Virus record (IMG/VR): IMGVR_UViG_3300013126_000208
Location: 1 to 26,342 of that record
Length of the DNA stretch: 26,342 nucleotides
Strand: one strand, 5' to 3'
Origin: a virus
A program made the position numbers and the translations under genes. The notes below the pieces were generated by a model, which saw only the letters and a program-made list of their open reading frames with translations, searched no databases and was not told the origin of the DNA. This document shows positions 16,311 to 23,462 of the stretch, piece by piece. Numbering within the stretch: position 1 is the stretch's first letter; each line of letters begins with the position of its first letter.

Positions 16311-16522
16311 ACAGGTAACTTTGGAGTTGCGGGAAGCAAGTTGATAGTTTCTCCCTCTGCTCTGATCTTTTCAATGATCGGTTTGGACAAATACTTGGCT
16401 GCTTGCTCAGGATCAATCCTCATCTCGTCACACACGGCAAGAACACTTTCAATGTATCCATTCTTGTGCTTGGCGAGATGCTTTTCTAGGCGATCAAGAA
16501 ACTGCTTCTGTGTTACTAGCAA
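16307..16522 (-). CDS. gp33: Late transcription coactivator gp33
   Basis: A 71-residue protein: KQFLDRLEKHLAKHKNGYIESVLAVCDEMRIDPEQAAKYLSKPIIEKIRAEGETINLLP. The pattern Y.(E/D)(A/S)V...C(D/E)E..I(D/E)(P/I)E.AA...SKP..EKI..E...(L/I)NLLP is that of the short gp33 coactivator in T4-like phages outside the T4 core; T4 gp33 has 112 residues. gp33 links the sliding clamp to RNA polymerase for late transcription with gp55. A TTG start is chosen, with AGGAG 9 bases upstream; no ATG fits. It begins inside the end of the glycosyltransferase gene (29 bases overlap) and overlaps gp59. The clamp-binding C-terminus of T4 gp33 is not evident; it ends LPATPKLPV. Confidence 0.75.
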   Translation of the reverse strand: MLVTQKQFLDRLEKHLAKHKNGYIESVLAVCDEMRIDPEQAAKYLSKPIIEKIRAEGETINLLPATPKLPV

Positions 16523-17645
16523 CTTGCATCGCTCCTGTTGGTTGGGGTTGCTGAACCATGTGCTGTAGTTTGCTGATGACCTCTACAAACTTGTCAACAC
16601 CTTCCTTGCTGTAGAACCTCGGAGGATCATCAAAGAATGTTGATTCGGGAATCTTTAATGCCGTTACTGCTGCCACAAGTCTCTCGTAGTCGCTTTTGGT
16701 AGTGCGAATGATTCCAACATAAGATCCTCGTAGTTTAGGATACTTGGCGATAGACATACGATAGAAGTTCGCGGCAATTTGCATTCCCTCCAACACCATT
16801 GCATCTTTGTTTGGATCTTCTGAGTTCTGAATTTGCTCAGTCTGATACTCAAAGAAGTTGCCAGCAAATACAGCGGCTTGTGCTGCTTCAGCAGGCCATT
16901 GAGAATTGTCGTACACGCTCTTCAAGACATCCAAACAAGCAGCGTCTTTGCGATAGTACAGTTGACGCCCATAGTAGTACTTGCGCGTGGGAGCATCAGA
17001 ATGCTCCACAGTATCCATACGCATCATCTCAAGAATTCTATCGTTGTCGTGATTCTTGCCCACATCATCAGGGTGATCTACGCTGTGGTCGATGACTACC
17101 TGAATACCTTTTGTTTCAGGAAGCAAGTGTTCGTGAAAACGATACATCCACTTCGCTTTACCTGGCCGCCAAATGCAGTTGCGCGGAAACTTATGCCCAA
17201 ACTTGGTTCGATGGAAGATGCTAACAACACCGATATGCGGGGTAACTCGCTGTAGTTTCCAACGCAAGTCTCTACCCTTTTCTAGCACTTCATCAGCATC
17301 AAACATTGCAATCCATGTTGCCTTGCCTGCATTTGCTAGTTCTACTGCCTTGTTTCGCGCATCGGAGAATGAATCAGGCCAAGGCATGGTATGCACTTCT
17401 GCGCCCAACTGCTTGGCAAGTTCAACCGTATTGTCTGTACTACCCGTGTCAACTATCACAACGCGATCAGCAAATCCTTCTAGGCTCTTCATAAGCCTGG
17501 ATATATTGTTTGCTTCGTTCTTTGTGATGAACACAGAAACAATGCTGAAGTTACGCAAATCGGTCAAGTACTTGTGTACTTGCTTGCCTCGTTCTAATCT
17601 TTGCTTTTGTGCTTTGTTCTGTTTGCGACGCTCATTCTTTTTCAT
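16494..17645 (-). CDS. Family 2 glycosyltransferase
   Basis: A 383-residue enzyme. After a very basic start (MKKNERRKQNKAQKQRLERGK) comes a GT-A domain: SIVSVFITKNEANNISRLMKSL (34-55), VDTGSTDNT (65-73) for nucleotide-sugar binding, SFSDARNKA (92-100) and the metal-binding FDADE (115-119). This is the WaaE/KdtX-like subgroup. The C-terminal half is helical and may mediate partner or repeat-type contacts. The sugar and acceptor (host envelope, phage protein or modified DNA) cannot be told from sequence. GGAG 8 bases before the ATG supports the start. It lies directly upstream of gp33 and overlaps it, placing a sugar transferase in the replication/late-transcription block. Confidence 0.85.
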   Translation of the reverse strand: MKKNERRKQNKAQKQRLERGKQVHKYLTDLRNFSIVSVFITKNEANNISRLMKSLEGFADRVVIVDTGSTDNTVELAKQLGAEVHTMPWPDSFSDARNKAVELANAGKATWIAMFDADEVLEKGRDLRWKLQRVTPHIGVVSIFHRTKFGHKFPRNCIWRPGKAKWMYRFHEHLLPETKGIQVVIDHSVDHPDDVGKNHDNDRILEMMRMDTVEHSDAPTRKYYYGRQLYYRKDAACLDVLKSVYDNSQWPAEAAQAAVFAGNFFEYQTEQIQNSEDPNKDAMVLEGMQIAANFYRMSIAKYPKLRGSYVGIIRTTKSDYERLVAAVTALKIPESTFFDDPPRFYSKEGVDKFVEVISKLQHMVQQPQPTGAMQVASNTEAVS

Positions 17646-17682: not shown

Positions 17683-18207
17683 TCAAGTCAACCATCTGCT
17701 CCAAATTGTTTTGTGATACTCGTCAGATATTTCCACAAACAGTAATCCCCGCTTCGGAGCAACTGGTTGTGTTCTGAGTTTCATGTTTGCTTCGTTCGGA
17801 GTGCGATTGCTTTTTTTGGCATTACACTTCTTGCACGACACTACAACATTTGTCCATTCGTGCTTGCCTCCACGAGACTTAGGCATCACATGATCTATGG
17901 TAGCACGCTCTCCGCTCACATGACATCCGCAATACTGGCATTCGTTGTTGTCTCTGCGAGTGATGTTGCGCTTGCTTGGGCGTGCCAATCTGTATGGGAT
18001 ATACACATAGTTCACCAGTACAAGTGCAGATGGTAGATGAAATACACCAGATCCTGTCTTGATCTCGTAGCAATGCTCGTAGTTAAATGGTGACCGCGCC
18101 TTGCCTTGTATGAGCATGGTTACTGCGCGCCACCAATCAATGACTCCGATGACCTGTTCTGATATGTTTAGAAGAAGAACTTTCCTGTTTTCAATTAGCG
18201 TGTCCAT
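17683..18207 (-). CDS. HNH endonuclease with zinc-binding cysteines
   Basis: A 174-residue protein. The start at 18207 follows GAGGAG by 7 bases and overlaps the end of the upstream nuclease gene; the longer frame is inside that gene. The first 75 residues (VLLLNISEQVIGVIDWWRAVTMLIQGKAR...) are the N-terminal region usual in this HNH subfamily. The HNH core reads CQYCG (C90, C93), TIDHVMPKSRGG (H106), N120 and SCKKCNAKKSNRTP (C125, C128), the classic zinc-knuckle ββα-metal fold. Close relatives occur widely in bacteria and phages. It is free-standing and not inserted in another gene; a homing role is possible but unsupported. Expression is coupled to the RecB/MGME1-like nuclease. Confidence 0.82.
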   Translation of the reverse strand: MDTLIENRKVLLLNISEQVIGVIDWWRAVTMLIQGKARSPFNYEHCYEIKTGSGVFHLPSALVLVNYVYIPYRLARPSKRNITRRDNNECQYCGCHVSGERATIDHVMPKSRGGKHEWTNVVVSCKKCNAKKSNRTPNEANMKLRTQPVAPKRGLLFVEISDEYHKTIWSRWLT

Positions 18208-18931
18208 TCTTGATCTCCTCAATGACCTCATCGGGATCAAACTCTGCATAGAACTCGTCAATGCGTTCTTTCAACTCGGGCACAAATCGTTTGGGCGATT
18301 CCACAAATGCTTGCTCTTCGCCTTCTGCGCTCACCATCATAATCACGATCTGTGGAACACGAGTACCAATCAACTCTTGAAACATGATGGAGTACGCGGT
18401 TGCTTGCAAGAAATAATCATGGCATCCTCGTGAGTCCTTCATACGCTCTGCTGTCTTGAAGTCGATGACGCTGAGTTTGCCATCAAACTCGGCAACACAA
18501 TCTGTTCTGCCAGCGAGTCGCATCATGTTGCTGTACAGAGGCACTTCCAATCCCGCCACATTGTTCACGAAACGATCAACCCTAGGCTTGATCTTCAAAA
18601 ACATCTCTTCCAGTTGTGGTCTACCAAACAACACCTGAAATGGATCACGATTTGAAAGGTAGTACTCCATAGTTAGGTGGAAGTTCTTACCTCGCTCAAG
18701 AATCATGCGGCTCTTGTCTGCATTATCTTCGCGCCACTTCTTCCACTTGTCACGATCTCTCCACCCCGTGACGGTGGTTACAGACGGATACCACACCAGT
18801 TCGCCTTCAGCGCCTGGAGTTTGGTAGAACCGTTTGCCGTTCACAATCTGATCTTTGAGATTGGGCAACTCAATCAAGTTCTGGCGAAAGTTGCCGATGT
18901 TATACTTTGGCTGTGCTTCTTTATTCATCAT
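18191..18931 (-). CDS. PD-(D/E)XK exonuclease, RecB/MGME1-like
   Basis: A 246-residue nuclease. PSVTTVTGWRDRDKWKKWR (49-67) precedes a G-x-x-x-H motif (ERGKNFH, H85), E129 in GLEVPLYS, D144 in LAGRTDCVAEFDG, the D157-x-K159 active-site pair in VIDFKTA and Q176 in DYFLQATAYS. These are the RecB-family motifs in order, as in the mitochondrial exonuclease MGME1 and Cas4-like enzymes. A role in trimming DNA ends during recombination-dependent replication is a reasonable inference; no iron-sulphur cysteines are seen. The start is either of two adjacent ATGs; there is no clear ribosome binding site, and the best promoter match upstream would give a leaderless message. Confidence 0.82.
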   Translation of the reverse strand: MMNKEAQPKYNIGNFRQNLIELPNLKDQIVNGKRFYQTPGAEGELVWYPSVTTVTGWRDRDKWKKWREDNADKSRMILERGKNFHLTMEYYLSNRDPFQVLFGRPQLEEMFLKIKPRVDRFVNNVAGLEVPLYSNMMRLAGRTDCVAEFDGKLSVIDFKTAERMKDSRGCHDYFLQATAYSIMFQELIGTRVPQIVIMMVSAEGEEQAFVESPKRFVPELKERIDEFYAEFDPDEVIEEIKNGHAN

Positions 18932-20031: not shown

Positions 20032-20640
20032 TCATCCTTTTGTGTGCTTGAAGAATTCAATCTGACGCAAACGCTTCAGAGCCTTTTCTTCTGATCCATA
20101 CACACCAAAACTTTTGTCTCCGTCTTTGGACATGACTTCGTATTTACCATCATCGCGCTTCACAATCTTTTCTACCAGTTCTTCTGTTAGACGAATTGAA
20201 TGAACAGCGTTGATGATAACTTTCTTGGAGGTTGCTCTTGCATATGCCCATGTGACTCCACCCAGGCTACTTGTCTCAGGAACCACTTCTTTCTTGTTGC
20301 TCTTCAGAATGAATTCTGGCTTGCCTAGCATGATGCGTTTCAAGATGATGACCACATCTATTTCTTTGCTTTGATTGGCTGGGTCGAATCCCATGGCATC
20401 AATCTCTGCGGTCTTCTTCATGCTCATCAGTTTCTTGACTTCAGCAGCAGAATCATCTGTGTCTGCTTTGAGTTTCTTCTCCAACGCCTTGCGATCCTTG
20501 TCGCTGATTACTGGTTTAGTGGCAATGATATTACCAAAACGATCCGACTTCCGCTTCAGGGAGTTCATTGCACCTGCAAAGAATCCTGGCATTTCATCGG
20601 GAGGAGTAACTGGTGCTTCGTTTACGGTTGGGTCTTTCAT
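20032..20640 (-). CDS. Unidentified protein, possibly head-related
   Basis: A 202-residue protein starting MKDPTVNEAPVTPPDEMPGF. The N-terminal 70 residues are polar and probably disordered, with Lys/Asp-rich helices (DKDRKALEKKLKADTDDSAAEVKKLM). Residues about 75-140 look folded (IDVVIILKRIMLGKPEFIL, WAYARATSKKVIINAVHSI). The C-terminus, DGKYEVMSKDGDKSFGVYGSEEKALKRLRQIEFFKH, is a short module seen at the ends of several phage head and protease-type proteins (recalled, not searched). GAGG 7 bases before the ATG supports the start. The 5' flank contains CTACATATAG and, farther up, the rRNA-like element with the terminator. Confidence 0.6.
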   Translation of the reverse strand: MKDPTVNEAPVTPPDEMPGFFAGAMNSLKRKSDRFGNIIATKPVISDKDRKALEKKLKADTDDSAAEVKKLMSMKKTAEIDAMGFDPANQSKEIDVVIILKRIMLGKPEFILKSNKKEVVPETSSLGGVTWAYARATSKKVIINAVHSIRLTEELVEKIVKRDDGKYEVMSKDGDKSFGVYGSEEKALKRLRQIEFFKHTKG

Positions 20641-20670: not shown

Positions 20671-20703
20671 AAAGAAAACCCACCCGTACCGAGTACGGGT
20701 GGG
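20671..20703 (-). terminator. Strong intrinsic terminator at the edge of the rRNA-like element
   Basis: An 11-bp perfect stem (20679-20689 with 20693-20703) around a 3-base loop, followed on the minus strand by TTTTCTTT (20678-20671). It is a textbook terminator for minus-strand transcripts, lying 31 bases before the start of the unidentified gene. On the plus strand the same hairpin stands where helix 69 would be in 23S rRNA. Confidence 0.75.
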
Positions 20704-20704
20704 C

Positions 20705-20793
20705 GGTAGCGAAATCCCTCTTCGGGTAAGTTTCCCGACACACGGCGAGTAGCGTAATCCGCCCTGCACCGTTCCAACGACTGACTCCGTGAA
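20705..20793 (+). other. 23S rRNA-like sequence (domain IV, after helix 69)
   Basis: Read on the plus strand, blocks match bacterial 23S rRNA in the same order and nearly the same spacing: GGTAGCGAAAT (20705-20715), CCT, TCGGGTAAGTT (20722-20732), CCGAC (20735-20739), GCGTAAT (20752-20758), CAACGA (20775-20780) and GACTC-GTGAA (20783-20793). In E. coli these lie at about 1928-2030 (helix 71 region and after). The helix 71-like stem is kept in changed form (TCGGG/CCCGA). Between the blocks the sequence differs, so this is not a recent copy or contamination by an rRNA gene. The comparison is from memory of the E. coli and Gram-positive sequences. Confidence 0.7.
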
Positions 20794-20812
20794 GTAGTGT
20801 TGGGGGACGCTT

Positions 20813-20820
20813 TATTTATA
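20813..20820 (-). promoter_or_regulatory. T4-type late promoter TATAAATA
   Basis: An exact match to the T4 late consensus on the minus strand, the only exact one I found in the window. It lies between the 3' end of the fucosyltransferase gene and the rRNA-like element, so its first product is that element. A gp33 homologue in the window supports use of gp55/gp33 late promoters. Confidence 0.65.
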
Positions 20821-20832
20821 TCGAAAGGCGCA

Positions 20833-21678
20833 TCAACCGCGAATGATTTTCCAGCCTGTCACATAAAGATCATGTCCTTTGGGGCCTCTAGGCCCGAACC
20901 ACGGATCAGGCATAGTTACAATCTTTCCTGGCGATTCGTTGAGCCATGCTCCCCACCAACTGAAACTGCTGTTCGAGATGATACAATGATCGGTTGCTCG
21001 TATAAAAGCAAGGTCTTGTGTCATTGATGTTCCTTCGGAATAGGTAAATGATCCAAACCTATTCATGGTTGGAAAGAATGATTTGCACCACGGGATATCA
21101 TCGCTCACCACAATGAAATGACACTTGCCGCCCAAACTTTGAGTTATATGCTCCATTGCTCGCTCGTAGTACACAGCAGAGAACGGGAAATTTAGAGGCA
21201 GTCGCAAGTAGTCTCCACGCCGAACATGAATTGATACGACCTTTCCAGTATCCGAACTGGATCGGCTAGACTCTATGCTTTCTGTTGCACAATCTCTGAT
21301 GCATGAATCTGCAAACGAAAATGCAGCACGAACTTCTTGTTCAGCGTGCTTGAAGTACTTCTCGCTCTGAAAATATCCAAAGAAATCAATGGAACCTTCG
21401 GCAGCAGTTAGTGCTGCAATGCGAGGAAGATACCTGATATCGTTGTGCGGTTCTCGAATCAAAATGTTTGGACGAAGTTGAGAGCAGTCAGCAACTTGGA
21501 TTCCAAACACCTCATCAATCGCCATGTTCGTCCATTGATTGCCTGGACTTTTGTTTGCATAAGGCAAACTAGGACGCAATCCTGTTTGCTTTGCGACTCC
21601 AAGCAGTAACGCATATTGGAACATTTGGTTTCCAAGTCTGCCCATTCTGCCTAAAGTTTTGCACATGATAAAGGACAT
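20833..21678 (-). CDS. Alpha-1,2-fucosyltransferase-like (GT11)
   Basis: A 281-residue glycosyltransferase of family 11. GRMGRLGNQMFQYALLLGVA (10-29) is the N-terminal GxLGNQMFQYA signature; SIHVRRGDYL (149-158) is the donor-binding HxRRGDY motif; NSSFSWWGAWL (236-246) is the third conserved motif. Family members transfer L-fucose from GDP-fucose, usually in alpha-1,2 linkage to galactose, in O-antigen or capsule synthesis. No membrane segment or signal is seen. It starts 5 bases after the Pro/Thr-rich virion-type gene, with no evident ribosome binding site, so translation is probably coupled; ATG at residue 5 is a possible alternative start. No GDP-fucose synthesis genes are in the window, so the donor would come from the host or another part of the genome. 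Confidence 0.85.
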   Translation of the reverse strand: MSFIMCKTLGRMGRLGNQMFQYALLLGVAKQTGLRPSLPYANKSPGNQWTNMAIDEVFGIQVADCSQLRPNILIREPHNDIRYLPRIAALTAAEGSIDFFGYFQSEKYFKHAEQEVRAAFSFADSCIRDCATESIESSRSSSDTGKVVSIHVRRGDYLRLPLNFPFSAVYYERAMEHITQSLGGKCHFIVVSDDIPWCKSFFPTMNRFGSFTYSEGTSMTQDLAFIRATDHCIISNSSFSWWGAWLNESPGKIVTMPDPWFGPRGPKGHDLYVTGWKIIRG

Positions 21679-21683
21679 GATGA

Positions 21684-23462
21684 TTATATGTTTGGATCAA
21701 AGATGATTGATTGATTTCTCTTTTTGAGATCTATGAGTTGAGCAATGTAATTCACGAAACTAGTTGAGGTTGGAAACCGAACTCCAAACTGCTTGCTCCA
21801 TCTTGGATCAGCAGAGTATGCTTCAGGCAAAACTTGCAACAGAGTGTTTGGAACCATGATGCCTTGTTTAGTGATGTTCTTTTCGGGATACGGTTCTTTG
21901 TATGAGTGTTGCTTTTCAAGCAAGTGAAAAGCAATGATTTGAGCATACAAATCTCCCCAATAGTAATTGTGGTTTGGAGCGCAACAGGTGCCTGGTGTTA
22001 GTCTCCGCTGTGTTTCATTTGGATCAAATGGACTTGTCACCGTTTGAATGGAACTAGTAACCGATTCCAAAAATGAATATCGTTCCAATGTCTTGATTCC
22101 ATTCTTCGTACTAGAAAGCAGAGGACAGGCCTGTGGAGATTGTTGCCAAATAGAGCGCCAAATTTCAACTTGCCCGTATTCGCTTGTTGAGTGAGGTCCT
22201 GCAAGACCCGTTATCTCAACAGGGCAACACTTGGATGTTGACCAATCATCATCTGCAATCACATTGTATCCCAAGTATGGATTACTGCGACCAGTTCCTT
22301 TTTTGAATGGATGAGATTCCACATACATTCTGTTTTTTCCGATACGAGTCTCAACCCATTTCCAAAAATTCCACCATCCACGCTGCAATGGTCTATCCAT
22401 ATTTGTCAATGCAACATTGTCTCCTGGCACAGGTCCTGGGGAAACAGCAGAGCCATCAAATCCAATCTTACAGTATGCACTAATCAGAGGTTGAACAGAT
22501 TCTCTGAGTCTTCTTGCTGCTGCTCGTGGATTGGTTGCAAATAGATTTTCCCATCTAGCAATATACGCCTCGTATCCCTCTTCACTTGATGCACCCACTA
22601 CGGTGTCTGGATCACCCATACCACCAACATACACAATTAGATCAATGGGTTCAGCAGGATTAAACCATGCATTAGGACCAGTGATCCAAGAATCCCAAGT
22701 TCCTTGATCTAATGTTCCGCGTTGTCCTGTAGTGAGCGCACGAATAACAGGAACAAAGTCATTAACCATCCACGGACATGGAGTGTTCTGCACCACTCCA
22801 TTAATGGTTAGTCCATCTCTTGCACACAAGTACTGGTCTACCTCAAACACAAGTTGCTGAACCTTTCCTCTAGCAACTTTGCCAAATGGACTGTGGAAGT
22901 GAAACTTTCTTGCTCCCCACTGATACCACTTTTTCAACGACCACGGATTCAACTCAGGAGCATATGGGTTGTATCCATTGTCTTCCAATGTAATAAATCG
23001 CTTCCATGTAAAGGTGCTGCGGTCTGCTCCCCATCCTGCTGCACGGCGGAACTCTCCAACATTCTGATTTGTTACAGTTTCCTGTCCATCAAATCCGATG
23101 ATAACTCTGAATTTCTCATCGAATAGCAGTCTGGCATCTGCAAGCGATGATGGTACAATTCCAACCAGTTGACTTGGTGTTGGAGTTGGAGTGGCAGTTC
23201 TAGTGGGAGATGGAGTTGGGGTTGGAGTACGAGTAACACCAACACTCGGAGTGATTGATGGTGTGATCGTGATTCCAGGCGTATTGGAAATTGTTGGAGT
23301 GATGGTTGGCGTAGGGGTTGGAGTTGTACCCGCCACTCTCCGTGCAACTCTGCTAGTCCCTGCGCCTGGACTTGGCTCTGATGTTACCGTAACCGTGATT
23401 GGTACTAGCACATTGCCGTCGCCAGGTTCGATAGGTAATGGTTGGTTCTTCGATACTGCCAT
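21684..23462 (-). CDS. Pro/Thr-rich virion-type protein with possible glycosidase-like domain
   Basis: A 592-residue protein. Residues 1-46 are a short head (PITVTVTSEPSPGAG), 47-97 a Pro/Thr linker (TPTPTPTITPT type), and 98-592 a large domain. The domain has repeated strand-like hydrophobic segments ending in polar or acidic residues (RKFHFHSPFG, IDLIVYVGGMGD, YCKIGFDGSAV, NRMYVESHPF, YNVIADDDW), an alternation that suggests a TIM-barrel glycoside hydrolase fold, with D in GFDGSA and E in YVES as candidate active-site residues. This is inference from pattern. Pro/Thr linkers are common in structural proteins of T4-like phages from water, so a surface decoration or receptor-processing protein is plausible. 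AAGGAG 6 bases before the ATG supports the start. It is co-transcribed with the fucosyltransferase gene. Confidence 0.6.
   Translation of the reverse strand: MAVSKNQPLPIEPGDGNVLVPITVTVTSEPSPGAGTSRVARRVAGTTPTPTPTITPTISNTPGITITPSITPSVGVTRTPTPTPSPTRTATPTPTPSQLVGIVPSSLADARLLFDEKFRVIIGFDGQETVTNQNVGEFRRAAGWGADRSTFTWKRFITLEDNGYNPYAPELNPWSLKKWYQWGARKFHFHSPFGKVARGKVQQLVFEVDQYLCARDGLTINGVVQNTPCPWMVNDFVPVIRALTTGQRGTLDQGTWDSWITGPNAWFNPAEPIDLIVYVGGMGDPDTVVGASSEEGYEAYIARWENLFATNPRAAARRLRESVQPLISAYCKIGFDGSAVSPGPVPGDNVALTNMDRPLQRGWWNFWKWVETRIGKNRMYVESHPFKKGTGRSNPYLGYNVIADDDWSTSKCCPVEITGLAGPHSTSEYGQVEIWRSIWQQSPQACPLLSSTKNGIKTLERYSFLESVTSSIQTVTSPFDPNETQRRLTPGTCCAPNHNYYWGDLYAQIIAFHLLEKQHSYKEPYPEKNITKQGIMVPNTLLQVLPEAYSADPRWSKQFGVRFPTSTSFVNYIAQLIDLKKRNQSIIFDPNI
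23172..23324 (-). repeat. Low-complexity Pro/Thr linker
   Basis: About 51 codons of alternating Pro and Thr with Ser, Ile and Val, seen on the plus strand as repeated GGAGTTGG-type units. It is degenerate, not an exact tandem repeat. It encodes residues 47-97 of the virion-type protein. Confidence 0.7.

Follow-up and report, generated by a model that had tools for sequence, protein, structure and literature searches.

Many uncultured T4-like bacterial viruses encode a small RNA, inferred to be expressed late, that is complementary to one functional patch of the 23S rRNA of their probable hosts, the Planctomycetota; pairing with this target would be a new way for a virus to touch the ribosome. 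The RNA was encountered in a 26,342-nt stretch of viral DNA (IMG/VR record IMGVR_UViG_3300013126_000208, positions 1 to 26,342; hereafter the window). The original prediction had described positions 20705-20793 as an old, possibly selected segment of 23S rRNA on the plus strand, in which an 11-bp perfect hairpin takes the place of helix 69 (H69), and had suggested a decoy, mimic or guide role. The resemblance it described is real. Its interpretation is supported only in part: the element is 23S-derived, old, conserved in related phages and very probably selected, but the gene lies on the minus strand, and hence its RNA is the complement of 23S rRNA and not a mimic or decoy of it. Of the proposed roles, "guide" survives in the broad sense of a base-pairing RNA.

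Resemblance to 23S rRNA and the strand of the gene

The plus strand at 20684-20793 aligned colinearly with 23S rRNA (Listeria 1980-2086, 67% identity over 110 nt, E 8e-8 for the window against two 23S genes). The 23S-wide local alignment score was 34, compared with a mean of 11.7 (SD 1.3, maximum 18 of 500) for dinucleotide shuffles, while the reverse strand gave background only. In an unbiased blastn search of 7.3 Gb of plasmids, the top-listed matches (E 0.03) all aligned to the same ~86-nt segment of loci that we read as 23S genes, although their features are not annotated. One further plasmid hit to the 23S region with low coverage (NZ_CP048737) looked like another element, but its sequence reads as a eukaryotic 28S fragment. 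The best alignment, to a planctomycete 23S, extended beyond the end given in the original prediction (Table 1). A covariance-model search had been put forward in advance as the test of the resemblance; the Rfam bacterial LSU model (RF02541) returned only 12.1 bits on the plus strand (E 0.1; gathering threshold 50) and nothing at gathering, and thus this search under-calls a diverged 23S relative that alignment detects.

Reading the opposite strand explained the remaining features. From 5' to 3', the minus strand carries the T4-type late promoter element TATAAATA, about 140 nt of structured RNA, and a hairpin followed by TTTTCTTT that was called as an intrinsic terminator. The hairpin seen at the H69 position is this terminator; it still carries the CCGUA...ACGG of helix 69. 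The minus strand folded at -64.4 kcal/mol, below all 200 shuffles (z -3.6), compared with z -1.7 for the plus strand. The window and its relatives (seven distinct sequences) keep everything from ATAAATA to the terminator, with TATAAATA or CATAAATA at the promoter position, while the gene upstream changes from a GT11 glycosyltransferase to others. On their alignment, the minus-strand structure has 43 consensus pairs comprising 301 cells, of which 278 are Watson-Crick, 23 are G·U and none is broken; the same pairs read on the plus strand break in 23 cells, and the best structure of the plus strand itself has 3 G·U and 7 broken cells.

Absence of the element from close relatives had been named beforehand as grounds for rejecting it. 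Relatives that keep the downstream 202-aa gene were found to keep the RNA, apart from L013 (contig IMGVR_UViG_3300045010_000158, 2850-3000), a close relative with 76-80% protein identity in which the RNA was replaced; only the 3' half of the terminator (CCTCGGTACGGGTGGC TTTTCTTTGG) remains, joined to another gene with a GGGGGAGG/CCTCCCCC hairpin.

Table 1. Positions of the antisense RNA gene, its parts and other features noted in the window
Position	Strand	Feature	Observations
20813-20820	-	T4-type late promoter element TATAAATA	Only exact copy in the window (0.21 expected)
20671-20812	-	Structured antisense-23S noncoding RNA	5' end not mapped (inferred about 20807-20812); 3' end in the T tract after the terminator; match to the window-clade model R1 at 20813-20671
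20678-20704	-	Intrinsic terminator hairpin (12 bp) followed by TTTCTTT	Derived from 23S helix 69; aligned to H69 CCGUAACUAUAACGG
20705-20718	-	Block B, GGGATTTCGCTACC	Complementary to 23S ~1929-1942 (helix/loop 70); distant members have GGAACUUCGCUACC
20744-20758	-	Block A, ATTACGCTACTCGCC	Complementary to 23S ~1965-1979
20684-20806	+	Whole stretch colinear with 23S rRNA (E. coli ~1908-2037; sense on +, antisense in the transcript)	Against a planctomycete 23S: 85 identical, 9 more G-U compatible, 26 mismatched positions
20032-20640	-	Downstream 202-aa gene of unknown function	Kept next to the RNA in close relatives
20833-21678	-	Upstream GT11 glycosyltransferase gene	Varies between relatives while the RNA stays
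16494-17645	-	Glycosyltransferase gene (PHROG beta-1,4-glycosyltransferase)	
17683-18261	-	HNH endonuclease gene	Overlaps the end of a PD-(D/E)XK nuclease gene
23050-23420	-	592-aa protein with a Thr/Pro/Ser-rich low-complexity stretch	6-nt tandem repeat at 23174-23228; no Pfam family

A family of bipartite antisense RNAs

Relatives recovered through the neighboring 258-aa gene lacked a convincing match to R1, the model built on the window clade. However, blastn against 23S rRNA revealed antisense copies of the same 23S patch in five of these contigs (L035, L037-L039 and L043), with the arrangement ...GUCGUUACGCCAUUCAU...AGGAACUUCGCUACCUU..GCCCGUCAUAG... followed by a terminator. A scan for GGAACTTCGCTACCTT then returned 66 viral contigs, of which 53 (about 40 distinct) were judged to carry this RNA; the others look like coding sequence. 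The antisense orientation relative to the terminator is constant in the family. A scan with a second, block-A pattern added one true member, L307, almost all of its extra hits being an unrelated prophage gene. A model trained on distant members without the window clade (R3) found L022, the window's sister, at E 3.6e-6 and the relative L017 weakly, which ties the window's RNA to the family.

The common parts of these RNAs are a late promoter, a closing stem (P1), a hairpin with block A, sometimes an extra hairpin, an exposed block B inside AAGG...CCUU, P1' and a terminator (T run in 31 of 39 distinct distant members). ATAAATA was present upstream in 18 of 39 distinct distant members and in 0 of 39 in a control stretch. 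In many freshwater members, the base about 5 nt after CATAAATA is the first base of P1, as expected for a late promoter start. In the window, the same rule would place the start near 20807 and leave the outer AGCG/CGCU pairs partly untranscribed; with no start site mapped, the motif and its conservation do not decide whether it lies at the fixed distance of a T4-type late promoter. P1 is compensatory, being GAUCG/CGAUC, GACGG/CCGUC, ACGGUCC/GGACCGU and CGGGCA/UGCCCG in different members, and own partners were better than swapped ones in all but 2 of 20,000 permutations. Helix 71, between the two blocks, is deleted or replaced by unrelated hairpins in distant members, so that the two flanks are what is kept. 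Several subfamilies (among L112-L175, for example L116, L126 and L145) differ in this insert; L161 has none, while L116 and L175 have an 8-bp hairpin with compensatory changes. In a short viral contig, L117 (1696-2030 and 2221-2236), a full tmRNA gene (113.9 bits, tag GNNSYSQAA) and two tRNAs lie about 200 nt or more upstream of an antisense-23S RNA.

Block B and the following GACCGUCAUAG match the antisense of 23S ~1912-1944 (E. coli numbering), and block A that of ~1963-1998. The members had been selected on block B alone, yet with that target masked, 36 of 40 placed their best complementarity to a whole planctomycete 23S at 1963-1998. A model trained only on phage RNAs (R2) found the antisense of the 23S gene as its best hit in a 5.1-Mb planctomycete genome, and gave matches in 115 of 392 planctomycete genomes; of 20 of these loci retrieved, 19 contain the 23S segment.

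No known RNA family was found to account for these RNAs. Searches of Rfam with the window (at gathering and at E up to 10) and with ten loci from the family search returned only tRNA and tmRNA matches at gathering, and none to GOLLD, ROOL, HEARO, snoRNA or other known phage or guide families. Deposited phages hold no relative of the RNA or of the 202-aa neighbor, and no paper describing a phage RNA antisense to 23S was found in literature searches that did not reach most subscription papers. Compared with the bacterial 23S rRNA of RF02541, with which it shares colinear sequence in the region of helices 69 to 74, the RNA is encoded on the opposite strand and has its own closing stem and terminator. 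Like phage-encoded base-pairing small RNAs, it is short and structured, has promoter and terminator motifs on one strand and is complementary to a host RNA, but the target would be rRNA and not an mRNA or replication primer, with a bipartite match flanking one rRNA helix; as a kind of molecule it is a base-pairing phage RNA, and it is the target that is new. The box C/D and H/ACA guide RNAs of Archaea and eukaryotes also pair with rRNA through short antisense elements; here, 14-30-nt blocks flank a whole helix, and the element belongs to a bacterial virus. The antisense ribosomal small RNAs of nematodes (risiRNA), which were not tested here, are made by RNAi polymerases from cellular rRNA, whereas here a dedicated viral gene encodes the antisense sequence. 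With T4 late transcription units the RNA shares the TATAAATA element, although a start about 5 nt downstream of it has not been mapped, and the element would drive a noncoding RNA.

Probable hosts of the phages

The sequence GGAACUUCGC, with C opposite 23S position 1938, mismatches ordinary bacteria but matches Planctomycetota perfectly, and the search for its genomic counterpart returned nearly only planctomycete 23S genes. The base opposite 1918 is C in 39 of 40 RNAs, and positions (1918,1938) are (G,G) in 93 of 105 planctomycete-like 23S and (A,A) in 12 of 12 from other phyla; this 23S panel was selected on G1938, and hence 1918 is the independent part. L307 has U, not C, opposite 1938. The window's sister RNA, L011, scored 47-55 against its best planctomycete 23S (top named matches Phycisphaerae) and at most 34 against the 12 others; the shuffled null was 8.9 (SD 1.3), against 51-55 for L011 against planctomycete 23S. 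L011 shares the variant GAAUAGCGUAAUCAC with genome G386, and BLAST matched it to a planctomycete 23S antisense at E 2e-17, with 82% identity over 94 nt. An intended Actinomycetota control drew the same planctomycete genomes and was void; with Deinococcota in its place, only 1 of 111 genomes matched, itself a genome chosen for this signature. A MAG titled Actinomycetota (JAACET010000039.1) groups by phylum with Singulisphaera and its 23S has the planctomycete signature, so its title looks mislabelled. The cyanophage marker psbA was absent from 22 large contigs, most of them carrying the RNA.

Given these signatures, the Planctomycetota are the likely hosts (Phycisphaerae for the window's clade), but this is inferred from rRNA only and is not proven. 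A search of 392 planctomycete genomes with one phage fragment gave no CRISPR spacer-like match, while a genome drawn from the same phylum (G212) contains a contig (C27, 5271-5739) with a stretch 64% identical to the T4-like gp32 gene of the window; together these leave a spacer, prophage or culture link undecided. Because the RNA copies lineage-specific 23S bases, it would also give a direct host prediction for large uncultured T4-like phages, here of a phylum with few known phages.

Proposed function and alternative explanations

The sequences themselves establish the coding strand, the anatomy of the RNA gene, common descent from the antisense strand of a 23S gene segment, and a bipartite complementarity that is conserved across the family; expression, pairing in the cell, the identity of the host and the consequence for the ribosome are inferences. 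That the feature is a minus-strand RNA gene of antisense-23S origin is nearly certain. In the favored view, to which we assign a probability of about 0.6, the RNA base-pairs in trans with host 23S rRNA on both sides of helix 71, although no transcript, structure-probing or binding data exist. Helix/loop 70 is single-stranded, is cut by the toxins MazF-mt3 and MazF-mt6 at UUCCU, and is needed for the joining of 50S and 30S subunits (PMC5408214). An RNA occupying helix 69 and helix/loop 70 on the subunit-interface face could clamp naked or maturing 23S rRNA, or free 50S, and hinder 50S maturation or subunit joining late in infection, when new ribosomes only cost resources; this step is more tentative than the pairing itself, and such an RNA would have to spare working 70S. 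Within the window's own clade, the complementarity has decayed (26 mismatches in 120 positions), and changes that would stay pairable as G·U are no commoner than those that would not (11 against 10), so there is no signature of selection for pairing within that clade. In addition, block A is partly folded in cis in many members.

If the pairing is real, viruses attack or re-program bacterial ribosomes with an antisense RNA aimed at rRNA itself, a strategy that we know of in no phage. Helices 69-71 are central for tRNA contact, subunit joining and recycling, and the RNA would thus be a natural probe of when that surface is open. There is perhaps an even chance that these RNAs form a widespread class that acts directly on the ribosome by antisense pairing with 23S rRNA around helix 71 while tracking lineage-specific rRNA bases of its hosts, which would make them a new category of viral host-takeover RNA and a sequence-based predictor of host for uncultured phages.

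The main alternative, considered unlikely, is that the RNA keeps its sequence by descent only and works through its structure, by binding protein, by conferring stability or as a leader or attenuator of the downstream gene. The strong and conserved fold, the decayed complementarity without wobble bias in the window clade, and a terminator just before the downstream gene that looks leader-like are in keeping with this view. However, blocks A and B stay near-perfect across about 40 divergent members whose other sequence differs, with C opposite 1918 in all but one of 40, the downstream gene is not constant in distant members, and in L013 that gene is kept without the RNA. Less likely still is that the RNA pairs with helix/loop 70 to shield or re-program the ribosome, for example against a MazF-type toxin in an abortive-infection defense, or to steer rRNA modification. 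Block B covers UUCC of the UUCCU site, and the target patch holds several modified bases, but a duplex there should also inactivate the ribosome; no toxin or modification gene was found linked to the RNA, though these were not sought systematically, and no guide family in Rfam matches. A sense RNA from the plus strand acting as mimic or decoy is very unlikely: the plus strand keeps universally conserved 23S bases and a helix 71-like stem, but promoter and terminator lie on the other strand, the base pairs are strand-asymmetric and the helix 71-like loop changes in L011 and L017. Chance resemblance or an assembly chimera with rRNA, for which only the sub-gathering LSU score could be cited, is refuted by the presence of the same element in independent contigs and metagenomes, with a score about 17 SD above shuffles and a sequence too diverged to be a contaminant.
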